DNA from: Bacteroidaceae bacterium | Lineage (GTDB): Bacteria > Bacteroidota > Bacteroidia > Bacteroidales > Bacteroidaceae | Length of the DNA: 39,860 nt | Direction: 5' to 3' | NCBI GenBank assembly: GCA_017615245.1 | Contig: JAGAAL010000054.1 | Span: 1-39,860 of the forward strand | Shown: positions 4,952-38,944 of the stretch, piece by piece | How positions within the stretch are numbered: the stretch's first letter is position 1 | How the letters are laid out: every line of letters begins with the position of its first letter | The notes under the pieces: generated by a model | Seen by the model: only the letters and a program-made list of their open reading frames with translations | The model's database searches: none | What the model was told of the DNA's origin: nothing | Made by a program: the position numbers and the translations under genes

Positions 4952-5392
4952 TTAGAATGGAGGTTCTTCAGTTTCCGACACATTGGTAACAGGCTGGGCT
5001 GTTGCTGCCTGCTGTGGATAACTACCAGCAATCCCTTGTGCTGCAGGTGTAGCTACTGATTTGGGTGTCAGCATCTCCATATTGCTTACCATGATCTCTA
5101 TGACCTGCCGGGTGATACCTTGTTTATCGACATAACTGCGTGTCTGTATTTTTCCTTCCACATACAGCTTATCGCCCTTGTGCACATACTTCTCAACCGT
5201 CTCAGCCAACTTGTCCCAGAAGATAAGGCTGTGCCACTCAGCACGTTCAGGTACCTGAGTACCGTCACGCATAGTGTATCCGCGATCGGTGGTAGCCAGA
5301 CGTACTGAAGCCACACACACACCTGTATCTAAATATCTCACCGTCGGTTCCTGTCCGACGTTTCCTATGAGCATTACTTTGTTTAATGACAT
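4952..5392 (-). CDS. ssb: Single-stranded DNA-binding protein
   Basis: Binds single-stranded DNA during replication, repair and recombination. The N-terminal 110 residues form the OB-fold (LNKVMLIGNVGQEPTVRYL, EWHSLIFWDKLAE, KGDKLYVEGKIQTRSY). A Gln/Ala/Pro-rich linker follows, and the acidic tip ends in TEEPPF, equivalent to the protein-docking tail DDDIPF of E. coli. At 146 residues it is a normal length for Bacteroidota. It is the first gene of the ssb, PPTase, kdsA, kdsD group. No clear TAnnTTTG element is seen just upstream, in the AT-rich stretch 5393-5440. Confidence 0.95.
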   Translation of the reverse strand: MSLNKVMLIGNVGQEPTVRYLDTGVCVASVRLATTDRGYTMRDGTQVPERAEWHSLIFWDKLAETVEKYVHKGDKLYVEGKIQTRSYVDKQGITRQVIEIMVSNMEMLTPKSVATPAAQGIAGSYPQQAATAQPVTNVSETEEPPF

Positions 5393-5578: not shown

Positions 5579-6589
5579 CTACTGCTTCAACAACCAATAA
5601 TCCAGTATCGTCATTGCAGCCATAGCTTCCACGATGGGGACAGCACGTGTCAACACACAAGGGTCATGACGGCCCTTCGCCGTGAATGTAACCTCCTCAC
5701 CTGCTGTGTTGACCGTCCGTTGTTCACGCAGGATAGTCGGTACAGGCTTGAACAGCACACGGAACACGATATCCTCGCCGTTGCTTATACCTCCCTGAAT
5801 ACCTCCGCTGTGATTGGTACGTGTGCGGATCTGCCCATGATCGTTATAGAACTCATCATTCATCTGCGAACCTGTCTGCCCCACACCTTCGAATCCGTCA
5901 CCCAGGTCAAACCCCTTCACGGCATTGATGGAAAGCATAGCCGCTCCAAGTGCCGCATTGAGTTTACCGAAGACCGGCTCACCCAAGCCTACCGGACAAT
6001 TCCTGATCGTACATCCTATGATGCCTCCGATGCTGTCGTTCTGCGCACGCACAGCACCTACGATGGCTTCCATCTGAGCCTGCCGTTCCTCCTTCGTGCC
6101 TTGCAGTTTCTGGCTGCCCACCTGAAGGATGTCAGCCTCAATGACAATACCCTTCTGGCGCAGCACCAGTTTCGCAAATGCTCCGCCAACCACACGACAC
6201 AGCGTTTCACGAGCCGAAGTACGTCCGCCACCTCTGTAGTCACGGATGCCATACTTCATTTGATAAGTATAGTCGGCATGCGACGGACGATACACATCCT
6301 TGATAGCCGTATAGTCAGCCGAATGATGGTCCGCATTACGGACGATGAAGCCGATAGGACAACCTGTGGTCTTTCCCTCAAACACACCTGAAAGGATTTC
6401 CACCTTGTCCGCCTCATTACGGGCAGTCGTCAGCACACCCTGTCTCGGACGACGGCGGTCGAGTTCCGACTGAACAAACTCCATATCCACGTCAATCCCT
6501 GCAGGAATGCCGTCAATCACGCCACCTAAAGCCTCTCCATGACTTTCGCCAAAGGTAGTCAGTCTGTATATATTTCCGAATGCATTCAT
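5579..6589 (-). CDS. aroC: Chorismate synthase
   Basis: Converts 5-enolpyruvylshikimate-3-phosphate to chorismate with reduced FMN, the last step of the shikimate pathway. The 336 residues start [18 protein letters not shown], the family N-terminal signature. Internal signatures are [26 protein letters not shown] and the late [13 protein letters not shown]. The ATG at 6589 is chosen because the family begins here and because ATGA overlaps the stop of the upstream slyD-like gene by 4 bp; the frame extends 13 codons further only through the Cys/Gly-rich tail of that gene. Translational coupling to the isomerase is likely. Confidence 0.95.
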
Positions 6590-29346: not shown

Positions 29347-30249
29347 TTATCTAACCATTACTTTCTTTCCGTCAACAACATAGATACCAGACTTGGTGGG
29401 CTGACCAGTAACCTTTGTACCGTCGAGTGAATACCAAGTGCTGGCAGCATCGTCCTTCTCTACTCCGCCGATGCCTGCAGCGATACCTTCTTCAGATGCA
29501 GGTGCTGTAACCTGAGGCTCTTCTGCCTTTTCTTCGCCCTTGCGTACGAGCTTCACGAACATGCCTCTGTCACGCTCCAAGTGGGACATCCAATGATATT
29601 CGCGATGGTTCAGTACTTCACTAAAGTTCTCCTTATAATCCTCTCTAACAATTCTGATCGCCTTGTCGCGTGCTACAAACTGCTCATGCTGTGCCTTCAT
29701 CTCTGTCAGTTCAGCCTCTGTTGGCTTCTCTGCTCTCGGACCTCTACGAGTATCCGGCTTGAAAGTTACAGGGTTCGCTTCTTCTGCTGCTTTCACATCA
29801 GCACGATAGGCGGTAAAGATAGGAGCAAAAGCTTCTGCCTTCTCGCTATCGAGATGCAGACGACGTGCAAAGCGCTCAGCTACCTCTTCGTCAGTAAGTG
29901 GTACTACAACAAATTCATCACTTCCTGGATGTGGACGGAATCCCTGTGGACCGCGAGGAGCGCGGAAACCTGGTCCTGGAAAATCCTTTGGAGCTTCGAA
30001 GCCTTTAGGAGCACGAAAGCCTTCTGGAGCTTTGAAATCTTTTGGAGCTTCAAAATTCTTAGGTGCACGGAAACCTTCTGGAGCCTTGAAATCCTTTGGT
30101 GCTTGGAACTCCGGCATTCCTTGAGGTGCAAAGAAATGACCTTGTGGGCCGTGGAACTCACGTGGGCCACGCGGTCCCTGTGGTGGTTGGGCGCTTGCTG
30201 CACCTACCATCAACAATAATGCTACTGCAAAAAGTAAAATTCTCTTCAT
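29347..30249 (-). CDS. Secreted hexapeptide-repeat protein with CpxP/Spy-like middle and sorting-type C-terminal tail
   Basis: 300 residues from the ATG at 30249, which gives the signal peptide MKRILLFAVALLLMVGAASAQ. Residues 22-115 are Pro-rich, with at least seven hexapeptide repeats of the form A-P-K/E-D/G/N-F-K/R/E, flanked by GPRGPREF-type segments. Residues about 125-240 are helical and charged (PLTDEEVAERFARRLHLDSE, FAPIFTAYRADVKAAEE) and recall periplasmic CpxP/Spy or DUF4890 helices. The last 30 residues (WYSLDGTKV, then GIYVVDGKKVMVR) are the tail common on exported Prevotella proteins. The function is unknown. The family calls for the middle part are tentative. Confidence 0.75.
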   Translation of the reverse strand: MKRILLFAVALLLMVGAASAQPPQGPRGPREFHGPQGHFFAPQGMPEFQAPKDFKAPEGFRAPKNFEAPKDFKAPEGFRAPKGFEAPKDFPGPGFRAPRGPQGFRPHPGSDEFVVVPLTDEEVAERFARRLHLDSEKAEAFAPIFTAYRADVKAAEEANPVTFKPDTRRGPRAEKPTEAELTEMKAQHEQFVARDKAIRIVREDYKENFSEVLNHREYHWMSHLERDRGMFVKLVRKGEEKAEEPQVTAPASEEGIAAGIGGVEKDDAASTWYSLDGTKVTGQPTKSGIYVVDGKKVMVR

Positions 30250-30580: not shown

Positions 30581-30667
30581 GCCGAAATGGTGGAATGGTA
30601 GACACGAGGGACTTAAAATCCCTTGGCCATAACGGCTGTGTGGGTTCGAGTCCCACTTTCGGTACCA
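30581..30667 (+). tRNA. tRNA-Leu (anticodon TAA), with encoded CCA
   Basis: 87 nt including CCA: acceptor GCCGAAA/TTTCGGT, D arm with GGAATGGTAGAC, anticodon stem AGGGA/TCCCT with loop CTTAAAA, long variable arm (TTGGCCATAACGGCTG region) and T arm GTGGG/CCCAC with TTCGAGT. It is the last core gene before the integrative element, so its 3' end is the probable attachment site. Confidence 0.96.
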
Positions 30668-30711: not shown

Positions 30712-30797
30712 TTATGTTTTTATTTTCTTTTTCCCGTGCTCAATATTTTGCCAAAATTTAGCAAAAATCTCCATATCGACCGCAAATATGACGATTT

Positions 30798-30827
30798 TTG
30801 TTGCTTCCTTTTTTTTCTCTACCTTTG
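30798..30827 (+). promoter_or_regulatory. Promoter of the element's left-end leader RNA and first gene
   Basis: TTG (30798-30800), 19-bp spacer, TACCTTTG (30820-30827). Transcription should begin near 30833, at the 5' side of the long helix described for the leader RNA. Confidence 0.7.
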
Positions 30828-30830
30828 CGC

Positions 30831-30990
30831 TGCGTTCCCACATAAGCCGAAAAAAGGATAAGACGAAAAAGCGTAACGGCTGTTATGTCCTGACCCCGAA
30901 TCCTTTTCAAGCTTATATTCGGTGGGAACGCAACGGGATGTGCAGCCGTTTTTCTGTGCGGGGGTGCTCCAGCTCAACTGGAGCCATCAT
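30831..30990 (+). ncRNA. Structured leader RNA, pseudoknot-capable
   Basis: Within about 160 nt I see three strong helices. Helix A: TGCGTTCCCA (30831-30840) with TGGGAACGCA (30923-30932), 10 bp, extended either by CCGAA (30847-30851) with TTCGG (30918-30922) or by ATAAGC (30842-30847) with GCTTAT (30911-30916). Helix B: AACGGCTG (30875-30882) with CAGCCGTT (30943-30950), 8 bp, crossing helix A. Helix C: GCTCCAG (30966-30972) with CTGGAGC (30978-30984), 5-nt loop. It ends 15 nt before the ATG at 31006 and has no open frame of its own. It is either a cis-regulatory leader or an independent RNA. I cannot name a known class. Confidence 0.6.
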
Positions 30991-31005
30991 AAAAAAAGAA
31001 CAAAT

Positions 31006-31299
31006 ATGATACAGTTGACTTTTCCTGATAAATGTGTCACTTATGGCACATTCATTAATGACCTCGCCACGGCCTTGGTTCCGAAGCTTCTGGAAGCGAT
31101 GAAGAACCCAAGCGACATCATTTCCCAGAATCAAGCTTATAAGCTCTTCGGGCAGGGCAATATCCTCCGCTGGCGTAAACAAGGACTTGTACAGCCCTTA
31201 AGCAAGCGACCAGGCAAGATAGAATATAAACTGTCAGATTTGCGTATTCTCCAGCAGCGTAAACAGGATTATTTTGATTTTCCTGTCAAGTCCTGCTAA
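31006..31299 (+). CDS. Small HTH/excisionase-like protein of mobile elements
   Basis: 97 residues, MIQLTFPDKCVTYGTFIND onward. The ATG at 31006 is chosen over the GTG at 30922 because the earlier stretch is the structured RNA. The C-terminal half reads like a helix-turn-helix of the MerR or excisionase kind (SQNQAYKLFGQGNILRWRKQ, then RPGKIEYKLSDLRILQQRK). Similar small proteins are familiar from Bacteroidota integrative elements, usually left as hypothetical. As the first gene of the element, behind a structured leader, it may control excision or the element's expression; that is inference. Confidence 0.75.
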   Translation: MIQLTFPDKCVTYGTFINDLATALVPKLLEAMKNPSDIISQNQAYKLFGQGNILRWRKQGLVQPLSKRPGKIEYKLSDLRILQQRKQDYFDFPVKSC

Positions 31300-31364
31300 G
31301 TAATCAATCAACCAATAATTAATCAAGCCCCCAATGGAGCAGACAAAAAAAATCACAAAGGAGT

Positions 31365-31802
31365 ATGAAAACCCTACAAGAACTACAGAATCAAATTACA
31401 CCGCTGGAAAATTACGCCAGCGAGCTTCAGGATGCTCTTACCCAAGTAGCATTAGTCGATGACCTGGATGAAGATGGTAACAACATCTTCCCAGAAAAGA
31501 AAACAATCATTGAAACTATGGCGCAAGCTGTGCAGTTGATGAATGATGTGGCAGGTATAATCAACAGCTTGCCAGATCGGAAACAGCCAAAGATAGATAC
31601 CGGAAAGAAGGGATTTGATTTTGCTTTCTGGCAGAAAGCGGTCGAAAAGGACAATAAAGAACTTGGCGATGTACTTAATGCCATTGCCAGAACGCCAAAC
31701 GAACTTCAGGAAGACGATGCGATTTGGATGTTATCGGATATTGCCAACGCAAGAGAAACATTATCGTGCCTAAATAAAGAGTTCACTGAAGCGTTAAAAT
31801 GA
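31365..31802 (+). CDS. Small protein of unknown function
   Basis: 145 residues, unrecognised. It is mostly helical with an acidic N-terminal part (LENYASELQDALTQVALVDDLDE) and further helices around 40-140; no membrane segment, no Cys motif. It has a good Shine-Dalgarno sequence (AAAGGAG, 3-4 bp before the ATG), rare in this genome. It follows the HTH gene by 65 bp and is followed by a strong hairpin. Confidence 0.7.
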   Translation: MKTLQELQNQITPLENYASELQDALTQVALVDDLDEDGNNIFPEKKTIIETMAQAVQLMNDVAGIINSLPDRKQPKIDTGKKGFDFAFWQKAVEKDNKELGDVLNAIARTPNELQEDDAIWMLSDIANARETLSCLNKEFTEALK

Positions 31803-32008: not shown

Positions 32009-32329
32009 ATGGATTCAACAAGCATCGAAGCAATCGTAAGAAACCTCGTACATGAGAGCGTGAAGGAGGAAGTTAAGAACATTCTCGACAGCCAGAAGGA
32101 AATTCTCACACTTCCTGAGGCTGCAGAACTGTTAGGTATGTCGAAGAGCTACCTGTATAAGCTCACTCAGGCACGAATCGTGCCGCACTACAAGCCCCTG
32201 GGAAAGATCCTGTATTTCGAACGTAGTGTGCTCCTGGACTGGATGCGTTCTTACAATGGCAAGTCCAAGGAGAGCATCGCAGCAACAGCGAACAACTACA
32301 TTGATCGCAAGCCACTCAACTTCGCATAA
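32009..32329 (+). CDS. Excisionase-family helix-turn-helix protein
   Basis: 106 residues. An N-terminal helix (about 1-32, MDSTSIEAIVRNLVHESVKEE) precedes an HTH_17 type winged domain at about 33-80: ILTLPEAAELLGMSKSYLYKLTQ, then VPHYKPLGKILYFERSVLLDWM, the standard DNA-binding turn and wing of Xis/AlpA-like proteins. The tail is polar. It sits 26 bp before the integrase, so it most likely acts in excision directionality or integrase control. Such proteins are standard partners of Bacteroidota tyrosine recombinases. Confidence 0.88.
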   Translation: MDSTSIEAIVRNLVHESVKEEVKNILDSQKEILTLPEAAELLGMSKSYLYKLTQARIVPHYKPLGKILYFERSVLLDWMRSYNGKSKESIAATANNYIDRKPLNFA

Positions 32330-32355: not shown

Positions 32356-33552
32356 ATGGCACGAATTGGTAAAAACGTAATAGAAGGTGGAAACCCCAAG
32401 CTGGTTAGGTTCCTCGTTAATGGAGGGAAGGAGTATAGCCTATCACTCGAGTATCACTTAGGTTACGACCGTGAGACGGGCAAGTCGACCCGAAGGCGCG
32501 AGTGTCTCAAATTACGCTATCCCGTCCAGCCTCGCAACGCTATAGAGACACAAGAAAAAAGAGACACTATCGAGCTTGCACGTAAGATCCGCTGGGAGCG
32601 TGAGCAGGAGTTTCTCGAACAGCGCGAGGGCTACCGACTTCACAGGGACAGAAAAATCTATTTTCTGGACTTCTATCAGACTTACATCGACAACTACACA
32701 AAAGCCGATGCAAAAATGATTCGAATCGCCCGTAACCGCTTCAGGGATTTTCTCGTTGCGAATGGGCATCAAAATCCCGAATTGCTGATGCCTGAGGCAA
32801 TGAATAAGGAGATGATGCTACGGTTCGCCGACTATTTGCAGACCAGGAGCCGAGGCGAAGGTGCCTCCAGCATCTTCCAAAGATTCAAAAAGGTGGTAAA
32901 GAACTGCGTGGAGAAAGGGTATCTGAAGAAGAATCCCTGTGATGGCGTGAAAATATATGTTGACAAACAAGCAATCCGGAAGGACTTCCTGTCGGCAGAA
33001 GAGATAAAGAAGTTGCTTGCTACACATTACAGCCGGCAGAACCTTGAGGTTCGCAAGGCCTTCATCTTCTGCCTTTACACTGGCATCCGCTGGTGCGACG
33101 TAGAACGAATAACGTGGGCCAACATCGACATCGGCAACAAACTTCTTAAAATCGACCAGAAGAAGGAAAATGGCCGTTCAACGAAAAGCTGGATCTGCAC
33201 ACCTCTTTCAGATGCCCTTCTTCGGCTCATAGGTAAGCCCCCGAAGAACTTCGCGCGAGAGTCGCCAGTGTTCTTCTTGCCCAGCTATGAATCATCACTT
33301 AAACAGATTAAAAATTGGGTTCAGAAGGCTGGCCTCGAAAAGCATATCAGCCTTCATTGCGCTCGTCACAGCTTTGCCGTGAATATCCTCAGTGATGGCC
33401 GGAATAACATCAGGACGCTACAAACTCTTCTCGGGCATAGTAGCCTGGAGCATACTGTGAAATATCTCAGGGTAGTCGACCCGCAGAAGGAGGCAGCTAT
33501 CGCCAGCCTCCCGGAACTTAAACTTGATGATGAGGAGGAGAAAGTACTATGA
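32356..33552 (+). CDS. Tyrosine recombinase (integrase)
   Basis: Catalyses insertion and excision of the element. 398 residues: an N-terminal basic, beta-rich region (1-95), a SAM-like core-binding domain (about 100-195, DFYQTYIDNYTKADAKMIRI) and the catalytic domain (about 210-390). The full catalytic set is visible: Arg245 (YTGIRWCDVERI), His334 and Arg337 (HCARHSF), His361 (LLGHSS) and the nucleophile Tyr370 (VKYL). This is the Bacteroidota phage/CTn-type family. The ATG overlaps nothing; the stop overlaps the next gene by 4 bp (ATGA). It reads away from the tRNA, 1.7 kb from the presumed attachment site. Confidence 0.95.
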   Translation: MARIGKNVIEGGNPKLVRFLVNGGKEYSLSLEYHLGYDRETGKSTRRRECLKLRYPVQPRNAIETQEKRDTIELARKIRWEREQEFLEQREGYRLHRDRKIYFLDFYQTYIDNYTKADAKMIRIARNRFRDFLVANGHQNPELLMPEAMNKEMMLRFADYLQTRSRGEGASSIFQRFKKVVKNCVEKGYLKKNPCDGVKIYVDKQAIRKDFLSAEEIKKLLATHYSRQNLEVRKAFIFCLYTGIRWCDVERITWANIDIGNKLLKIDQKKENGRSTKSWICTPLSDALLRLIGKPPKNFARESPVFFLPSYESSLKQIKNWVQKAGLEKHISLHCARHSFAVNILSDGRNNIRTLQTLLGHSSLEHTVKYLRVVDPQKEAAIASLPELKLDDEEEKVL

Positions 33553-37732: not shown

Positions 37733-38944
37733 ATGAAATGTAATAAGTTTCTGCATACAGAAACCCCGTTTGTGTCGCATAAATGGCTTGGGGTTATATT
37801 GCTGATGCTGATGTTTGTGCCAGGTATGGCACAGGCACAGGAGTTTTCTGAGGTTGTAGACAGTATCAGTGCTCTTGGATTCGAGATGTTTGAGGAAGAG
37901 ATTGATGATGCTATCTTCCGAACGAATGAGTTTCTGACCGATTCCACCTTTATCGGAGCCAGTGGCCCGTTCTGGTGGATCTTGGAGATGTGTATGGCTT
38001 TAGGTGCGATGTTCGCTATCATTATGGCCGCAGGCATGGCCTATAAGATGATGGTGAAGGGTGAGCCGTTTGATGTGTTGAAGATCCTTCGAGTCTTAGG
38101 CATAGCCGTCGTGATGTTCTGGTGGTACCCACGCGGAGATAGTGGTGCATCCTTCTTGGGCATGTTGGCGTATGTACCCAACTGTATCGGGTCTTATACC
38201 CATGACCTCTATGAGATAGAAGCTGCTCAGGTACAGGAGAAGCTTAAAGATTTGCATCCTAAAATCAATGAACGTGACAGCCTGTTGCGGAAAAGCATGG
38301 CAGAATACGAAACCGCGAAGAACGGCCTCGAACAGACTGGCAGCACTGTCGGTGAATCCGTCAGTGATTTAAGTGCACAGATGGAAGGTGAGAAGAAAGC
38401 CAATGAAGCATGGTATAGCAGCACTTATGCAGGTGTGATTGTCTGTGTAGACAAGCTGGTGATGTTAGCATCTTTGATGCTGTTCAGAATCGGTTGGTGG
38501 GGAACGATATACTGTCAGCAGATCTTATTGGGAATGCTGACTATCTTCGGTCCTATCATGTGGGCGTTCAGCATCTTGCCCAAGTGGGAAGGAGCCTGGG
38601 CGAAATGGATTTCCCGTTACCTGACCGTCCATTTCTACGGAGCCATGTTATACTTCGTCGGCTTCTATGTCCTTCTATTGTGGGACATTGTGCTGAGTGT
38701 GCAGTATGAGAATTTGTGTGCCATCATGGAATCCCCTGAGGCATTCCAAGGCTATCTGAAGAGTACGTTTGTTACCAGTGCTTATCTGTTGGTTGCCGGC
38801 ATTATATCGATGAAGTGCCTGAGCCTGGTTCCGGACCTTGCAGCCTGGATGATTCCGGAAGGTGAAACGTCGTTCTCAACCCGTAGTTTCGGTGAAGGTG
38901 TTGCCTCTTCCGCTAAAATGGAAACCCAGCGATTTTTGAAATAG
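37733..38944 (+). CDS. TraJ-like (VirB6-type) conjugation inner-membrane protein
   Basis: 403 residues. A cleavable or anchoring N-terminus (WLGVILLMLMFVPGMAQAQ, about 18-36) is followed by membrane segments at about 80-105 (WWILEMCMALGAMFAIIMAA), 118-132, 225-300 (several) and 300-370 (LYFVGFYVLLLWDIV, YLLVAGIISMKCLSLV). A charged coiled-coil loop (about 160-220) lies between the two hydrophobic halves. This layout matches TraJ of Bacteroides conjugative transposons, the VirB6-like channel component of the transfer apparatus. It has a strong Shine-Dalgarno sequence (AGGAGG at 37721-37726). It is not preceded by traE-G in this window. Confidence 0.75.
   Translation: MKCNKFLHTETPFVSHKWLGVILLMLMFVPGMAQAQEFSEVVDSISALGFEMFEEEIDDAIFRTNEFLTDSTFIGASGPFWWILEMCMALGAMFAIIMAAGMAYKMMVKGEPFDVLKILRVLGIAVVMFWWYPRGDSGASFLGMLAYVPNCIGSYTHDLYEIEAAQVQEKLKDLHPKINERDSLLRKSMAEYETAKNGLEQTGSTVGESVSDLSAQMEGEKKANEAWYSSTYAGVIVCVDKLVMLASLMLFRIGWWGTIYCQQILLGMLTIFGPIMWAFSILPKWEGAWAKWISRYLTVHFYGAMLYFVGFYVLLLWDIVLSVQYENLCAIMESPEAFQGYLKSTFVTSAYLLVAGIISMKCLSLVPDLAAWMIPEGETSFSTRSFGEGVASSAKMETQRFLK

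Follow-up and report, generated by a model that had tools for sequence, protein, structure and literature searches.

The c4 RNA of phages P1 and P7 is antisense to the start region of a small gene that heads a control operon. P1-switching translational riboswitches have a variable switching helix, a conserved core and, next to the start, a downstream copy of the 5' strand of P1, and the hok-type and MS2 maturation-protein leaders pass through metastable folds that exchange strands during transcription and time translation. PMC8546580 describes c4 as a trans-acting RNA that represses synthesis of the Ant antirepressor proteins. In the translational attenuators of ermC and tetQ, mutually exclusive leader helices expose or hide the start region, and tetQ, a Bacteroides tetracycline-resistance gene of the integrative and conjugative element (ICE) CTnDOT, is said to be controlled by similar attenuation (PMC5418344). 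Here we analyzed a leader RNA at positions 30798-31005, upstream of the gene at 31006, in a 39,860-nt stretch of Bacteroidaceae DNA (contig JAGAAL010000054.1), which as a whole we call the window, and compared it with its relatives.

Like c4 (RF01695), the Bacteroidales leader is a phage RNA complementary to the start region of an operon's leading small gene, but it is ~200-290 nt long and has a second sense copy, A1, and a 14-bp pseudoknot helix; RF01695 was not among the Rfam matches up to E 10 for the window and for the region of one relative, L051. The ermC fold differs in being set by a translated leader peptide and an antibiotic-stalled ribosome; 75 of 79 Bacteroidales leaders contain some frame of at least 10 codons, a count that does not establish a conserved leader peptide. 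Compared with P1-switching riboswitches, the switching helix is far longer and no ligand is known for the leader, and its layout is unlike that of the hok-type and MS2 leaders. We consider it fairly probable that these RNAs are a family of two-state, pseudoknotted mRNA leaders of Bacteroidales mobile elements, with the window copy as a member. The structured RNA heads operons of Bacteroidales temperate phages and ICEs, elements whose lysis-lysogeny and excision control is, to our knowledge, poorly understood.

Architecture and covariation of the leader family

The curated set comprises 96 places besides the window, some of them near-identical, from IMG/VR contigs, GenBank phages and Bacteroidales genomes. 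Three alignments were made, always named here with the word alignment to keep them apart from the RNA strands. Alignment A1 has 51 rows, left after 7 of 58 sequences were dropped (one chance match, the window, two truncated sequences and three duplicates); L104 coincides with L021 and has no row in it, and the same holds for truncated loci such as L056, L114 and L120. Alignment A2 holds 49 of the 51 and the window (L111 and L122 omitted), and alignment A3 holds 37 chosen members and the window, L196 being omitted for a long insert.

In alignment A1, a promoter box is followed by strand A1 (~15 nt) and by hairpin P2, which uses the last A1 bases. Then come a 5' domain that contains more hairpins, strand B, a linker and hairpin P5, and finally antiA, B' directly after it, a small hairpin or pseudoknot, strand A2 and the start codon, which mostly lies within ~10 nt of A2. 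The box, similar to TACCTTTG, stands just upstream of A1 in most relatives, and by eye most of the 51 have a small hairpin or pseudoknot at the site of window hairpin C. A2 is a copy of A1; antiA is complementary to both, and all three strands change together, which yields a clean two-state prediction. The P4 loop (alignment A1 columns 75-90) is conserved and U-rich in an RNA whose switching strand is A-rich, and a U-A-U triplex is conceivable.

Across the 51 sequences, 94.5% of A1:antiA cells are paired, with double changes in 11 of 15 pairs; the figures are 97.6% and 12 of 15 pairs for antiA:A2, and 100% and 4 of 5 pairs for P2. Pairing drops to 36-50% in slid controls, and the percentage paired, the double-change cells and the covariation score were each reached by 0 of 500 shuffles. 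In a divergent set of 38 sequences that includes the window, 95.8% of B:B' cells are paired, many of them as G-U, with double changes in 8 of 15 pairs. The original prediction, made from the letters of the window alone, had named compensatory changes in helices A, B and C as its check, and the equivalents of helices A and B, A1:antiA and B:B', do covary in relatives. RNAalifold on its own picked antiA:A2. Comparison thus shows a common architecture beside the start codon with covarying A1:antiA, antiA:A2, P2 and B:B', and selection seems to have kept antiA in both of its pairings, along with the crossing pseudoknot.

An exact 8-nt A1 that returns as its reverse complement in antiA and again as A2, followed by ATG, was found at 85 of the 96 curated places; under stricter checks, 79 of these also have the promoter box, a T-run and B'-like bases (78 distinct leader strings). 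Of the other 11 places, 10 have an antiA:A2 run of 16-24 pairs, G-U allowed, and L200 has 9 bp by eye. With a 10-mer, the triple signature occurred in 78 of 161 sequences, a set largely picked for the RNA (both strands), versus 0 of 161 shuffled sequences (one strand). A further element, A3, is tentative: it stood above permutation in the 51 sequences (0 of 1000) and not in 19 divergent members (262 of 2000).

Competing folds and the window copy

We folded 72 leaders with the pseudoknot ignored. Stopped before A2, they paired antiA with A1 at a mean probability of 0.92; at full length the means were 0.52 for A1 and 0.42 for A2, with 38 leaders favouring A1 and 30 favouring A2. The two duplexes have close energies, with means of -23.7 kcal/mol for A1:antiA and -24.7 kcal/mol for antiA:A2 over 78 entries in which a few places occur twice, and antiA:A2 is the stronger in 52 of the 78. 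The competing folds are computed to be of similar energy.

In the two-state reading, transcription would start at or just before A1, as judged from the promoter. In the emerging leader, antiA would pair with A1, and the B:B' pseudoknot would form alongside because antiA and B' adjoin; the A2 and start-codon region would be free and the first gene translatable. A2, once made, could displace A1 from antiA, and the resulting local hairpin would cover the start region and shut off translation of the first gene; coupling might extend this to the operon. Translational control, with its direction and trigger, is what we infer here, and for the first gene it is the simplest reading because antiA:A2 covers bases just before or including the start codon. 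The balance might be tipped by a protein, a ligand, an RNA in trans or the speed of transcription. The idea of a switch, originally read from two mutually exclusive extensions of helix A, is kept for the family, but the route would be competition of A1 and A2 for antiA and not those extensions.

The elements proposed for the window leader are present in the DNA. A base-by-base check found the promoter where it had been placed, and it fits the Bacteroidota consensus. Helix A, given as 30831-30840 with 30923-30932, is in fact 11 bp long (30831-30841 with 30922-30932); helix B (30875-30882 with 30943-30950, 8 bp) crosses it, hairpin C has its 7 bp, and the two alternative pairings of helix A (CCGAA/TTCGG and ATAAGC/GCTTAT) both exist. 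Chance rarely gives a helix of at least 10 bp crossed by one of at least 8 bp: of 1000 dinucleotide shuffles of the segment, 2 contained such a pair, as did 3 of 441 181-nt windows slid along the sequence, the leader's own among them. The nested fold of 30825-31005 has -61 kcal/mol (z -3.3), with 0 of 200 shuffles equally good. The claim that no protein is coded here is probably right: an open frame does run from GTG 30922 toward 31006, yet 14 of 17 foreign matches of the 31006 protein start at its residue 1-5, and for that reason the stretch is probably non-coding. An intrinsic terminator was rejected for the leader, as no T run follows hairpin C. Eleven nucleotides, TCAAGCTTATA, are identical between leader positions 30907-30917 and positions 31131-31141 inside the gene at 31006.

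The window copy is best read as a divergent family member at the left end of an ICE, an assignment based on common sequence, the order of the parts and the kinship of the elements and not on model score. TACCTTTG (30820-30827) lies immediately 5' of A1, which begins at 30831; the A1:antiA helix and the crossing B:B' are present, B' directly follows antiA, and the order promoter-A1-B-antiA-B' is that of the relatives. The tail has an exact 27-nt identity with L055, a locus found with an 18-mer of this tail. The exact run that the window leader shares with 51 relatives has a median of 22 nt, against at most 9 nt in shuffled controls; many of the 51 were found with an 18-mer from the tail, which favours tail identity, and the fair figure for tail conservation therefore comes from members found without using it, 20 of 26 of which match 23-26 of its 27 bases. 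The leader heads an operon of an ICE akin to the L164 and L165 elements, and in L164 the canonical RNA directly precedes a homologue of the window's 31365 protein. A model built without the window scores it at 21.1 bits, with an E-value of 1.6e-4 over the window and of 0.008 over its genome; models R1 and R2 include the window, and its scores with them were not counted as evidence.

The region before ATG 31006 is mostly unpaired in the computed fold, and with this start predicted mostly open the window copy might be constitutively ON, rewired or on the way to decay. That this copy is a decaying relic with no function, a view compatible with the family being a switch, is the less likely option. 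Consistent with a relic, A2 has been lost, the 5' domain is shorter than and different from that of relatives, the genome holds one copy, and no close homologue of the whole leader was found in 251 genomes of the window's family; however, helix A is a perfect 11 bp, B and hairpin C are intact, and so are the promoter consensus and the conserved tail.

Several points weigh against the two-state reading. The window lacks A2, and no copy of GCGTTCCCAC (at most 2 substitutions) occurs in 30941-31400; therefore the switch is not demonstrated in the window copy. Some plain hairpins outscore the window's 21.1 bits, up to 37.8 bits (L211), so the model score alone proves nothing. Counted by pairs with any double change, the A1:antiA result was equalled by 70 of 500 shuffles, and counted by pair types, by 79; in the test of antiA:A2 and P2 the corresponding figures were 0 and 209 of 500. 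B:B' is nearly invariant in the 51 sequences (double changes in 1 of 15 pairs), and the aligned sequences are related, so that counts of changes are not counts of independent events. The folding of leaders ignored the pseudoknot, and single leaders often strongly favour one state; this lack of individual balance weighs slightly against the two-state reading.

Variation of the A strands and alternative readings

The puzzle is why a regulatory helix in which three changes have to match varies so widely among relatives with almost the same core. The 85 places with the triple signature have 67 distinct A starts. In 41 pairs with a core divergence of 5-10%, A1 differs at 41.5%, antiA at 38% and A2 at 40.5% of positions, the linker at 26.5% and a variable insert at 27.1%; in 57 pairs at 10-13%, the values are 40.9% for A1, 35.2% for the linker and 36% for the insert; and in the 8 closest pairs they are 10%, 7.4% and 23.1%. 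The flanks (90 nt upstream and the first 300 nt downstream, gapped alignment) differ by 25-28% in all three groups and give no rate, because a constant value at every distance means saturation. The compared pairs overlap, mosaicism is possible, and the excess variation of this key at 5-13% core divergence is an observation, not a test of selection; it hints at private specificity.

The Porphyromonas phage BK068104.1 (L226) carries copies at 4983-5200 and 6168-6370, ~1.2 kb apart, whose leaders are identical at 150 of 166 bases and whose keys are identical at 20 of 26 (gapped alignment). Hypothetical-protein genes are annotated over both RNA copies of this record. Keys differ in 6 of the 7 two-copy genomes and records compared (G400, G413, G414, G028, G770 and BK068104.1) and are the same in G249. 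The two near-identical copies of G249 (contig C1, 2413692 and 5119804; L204 and L220) lie in a single-contig genome and are probably a duplicated prophage.

By analogy with c4-type immunity, the A strands behave as a specificity key would. We regard it as unlikely, but worth stating, that the leaders serve Bacteroidales phages and ICEs as an RNA-based system of identity and immunity. A resident leader, or a piece processed from it, would use antiA to silence the A2 mRNA of related incoming elements; A would be a private key of up to ~15 nt, present in sense (A1, A2) and antisense (antiA), and elements with another key would escape (heteroimmunity). The key would diversify in concert at three places, perhaps four with A3, leaders would silence same-key elements only, in parallel to the protein repressors of lambdoid phages, and the internal A1 would let an element's own fresh transcript escape. 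Such a system would account for the many A starts, for A1 varying above the linker at 5-13% core divergence although three places must change together, for the different keys of most two-copy genomes and for the two BK068104.1 keys being less alike than the rest of their leaders, and one first gene (L200) has an AntA antirepressor domain. It sits badly with the 8 closest pairs, in which A1 varies less than the insert, with the same-key copies of G249, and with first genes that are mostly small proteins with a hydrophobic tail and not antirepressors. Moreover, A1 in the same RNA hides antiA, no processed RNA is known, the compared pairs overlap, and the saturated flanks offer no rate for comparison; the closest pairs and these flanks weaken the rate argument and with it, slightly, the case for immunity.

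Less likely again is a classical riboswitch or protein-binding leader, in which A1:antiA would be stabilised when the conserved core (P3 loop, U-rich P4 loop, B:B' and P5) binds a phage protein or a metabolite. Core columns do vary less than A, and riboswitches usually combine a switching helix of variable sequence with a better conserved core and a start-sequestering downstream copy; yet a ligand-gated helix of up to 15 bp would be long, and the downstream genes suggest no metabolite. A DNA-level element, with the A repeats as recombination or protein-binding sites and RNA folding incidental, would suit ~15-nt direct and inverted repeats in mobile elements, but it is very improbable given the fixed position between promoter and start codon, the covarying pseudoknot with its many G-U pairs and the lack of an inverted arrangement among the places inspected.

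Distribution and genomic context

The leaders are apparently a large family that is absent from Rfam and undescribed. Against Rfam 15, neither the window leader nor its relatives (the L051 region, 10 loci and 6 divergent loci) gave a match at gathering score, and a known Rfam family was rejected for both; the window leader had only weak matches up to E 10, and the best sub-threshold match over L051 was L10_leader (E 0.011, 27.6 of 44 bits), located upstream of A1. The covariance search suggested at the outset thus returned no Rfam family, and relatives of the leader do exist in Bacteroidales mobile elements. No description of this RNA was found in a literature search limited to a minority of the subscription journals, with hardly any preprints and no supplements, nor in the consulted parts of PMC2864571, PMC8040213 (without its motif lists), PMC8143477, PMC5418344 and PMC8546580.

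In the 251 genomes of the window's family, the best foreign DNA match of the leader was 28 nt at 96% (E 3.4e-6, one genome). It sits in L021, after an outer helix of different sequence but equal pairing. The pattern GCAACGGGATGTGCAGCCGTTTNTCTGT (at most 3 mismatches) was found in 2 of 399 family genomes, the window's and that of L021, and its reversed control in none of the genomes listed. An 18-mer, CGGGATGTGCAGCCGTTT, matched 28 IMG/VR stretches and 29 stretches in 84,980 species genomes, of which 12 were real and 17 chance or coding by inspection; the 12 carry Prevotella, Prevotellaceae, Bacteroidaceae or Bacteroidales titles. A 5' motif independent of the tail matched 36 viral stretches, and a P4-to-B motif matched 31 stretches, 3 of them by chance (L183, L187 and L192).

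Large genome samples were scored with stricter filters. Covariance models found real copies in 4 of 393 genomes of the order-level sample, the window included; its 9 matching genomes comprised these 4, 4 with hairpins only (L154, L156, L157 and L159) and the ambiguous L158. The family-level sample had real copies in 17 of 329 genomes, including the window and one decayed copy, out of 23 reported, the other 6 being hairpins only. By eye, the decayed copy, L208 (G003:C66), partly keeps the fold and has no start codon after A2. Among 326 genomes of the phylum-level sample the window alone was real, the other 2 of 3 matches being plain hairpins. Close relatives of the L051 RNA gave no match in GenBank phages or plasmids, and divergent members in phage records were found afterwards: two fecal phage records and two annotated Porphyromonas gingivalis phages carry the RNA. 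Genes for hypothetical proteins overlie it in two GenBank phage records, and for this reason it may be misannotated elsewhere too.

In phages the RNA has a promoter to itself, which a terminator-like hairpin often precedes (by eye), and a run of small genes comes after it. The first genes mostly encode ~65-120 aa, usually with a hydrophobic C-terminal half (exceptions by eye: L069, L075, L186 and L188), and of those scanned L200 alone rose above the cut-off, with its AntA domain. Farther downstream lie long genes that by eye resemble tail genes, with one DUF6712 match. In the Porphyromonas phages, as annotated, the region follows the lysis genes, and the RNA precedes small genes, HicAB-like genes and an integrase. 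In the ICE-like elements L086, L088, L102 and L103, the RNA precedes small, replication-like and ParA genes (names partly by eye), and L102 has an Xis-like helix-turn-helix (HTH) gene downstream of it. Evidence by blastp for a TraJ-like gene comes from L164 (the region of L103) only. A tRNA-Glu lies upstream of the RNA on the same strand, at ~650 nt in L164 and ~870 nt in L167 (the region of L086); no tRNA was found in the regions of L102 and L088.

The original prediction set the leader, with a promoter before it, at the left end of an integrative element, and this is supported (Table 1); the element also encodes ParA and Pif1-like helicase proteins by domain scans, and its 38981 protein is 55% identical to the L164 counterpart. 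The tRNA-Leu is likely the attachment site of the element. Two further claims gave way. The 31006 gene had been called an HTH gene, for which Pfam and NCBIfam offer no support, and the RNA had been tied to it, but model R1 matches 0 of 17 loci fetched with the 31006 protein (flank at most 1.5 kb). This protein had no match in viral contigs.

Table 1. Features of the window leader and of the element that it heads
Feature	Positions	Strand	Basis or remark
tRNA-Leu (taa)	30581..30667	+	ARAGORN, Rfam
Promoter, Bacteroidota-type	30797..30827	+	TTTG 30797-30800, N19, TACCTTTG 30820-30827 (sequence)
A1, 5' strand of helix A	30831..30841	+	11-bp perfect pairing with 30922-30932
B, 5' strand of pseudoknot helix	30875..30891	+	Pairs with 30934-30950: 8 bp perfect and an imperfect extension
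A3-like linker strand CCGAAT	30896..30901	+	Able to pair with ATTCGG 30917-30922
antiA, strand with alternative partners in relatives	30922..30932	+	Pairing and covariation in relatives
Conserved tail CAACGGGATGTGCAGCCGTTTTTCTGT, including B' (30934-30950)	30931..30957	+	Sequence match to relatives
Hairpin C	30966..30984	+	7 bp, from sequence
First gene after leader, 97 aa, phrog_17289	31006..31299	+	PHROGs family of unknown function
145-aa protein	31365..31802	+	Distant homologue directly after canonical RNA in L164/L103; BLASTP E 7e-12, 24%
Excisionase-like HTH protein	32009..32329	+	PF12728, TIGR01764; 41% to L165 protein
Tyrosine integrase	32356..33552	+	PF00589 E 7.5e-21
TraJ-like conjugation protein	37733..38944	+	TIGR03782 E 1.3e-9, below its cut-off; 65% to L164 counterpart (blastp)

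A phage satellite, the first idea for the tRNA-linked elements, was rejected, as the TraJ-like gene points to ICEs. A retron or self-splicing element was rejected too, there being no reverse transcriptase among the window proteins scanned and no Rfam match. Ten nucleotides, TAACGGCTGT, are identical between the tRNA-Leu (30630-30639) and strand B (30874-30883), possibly by chance, and window B' could in principle pair with the neighbouring tRNA-Leu. Adjoining the element, at ~30000-30130 on the minus strand, a repetitive Ala-Pro-(Lys/Glu)-x-Phe-like reading was seen by eye in the DNA.
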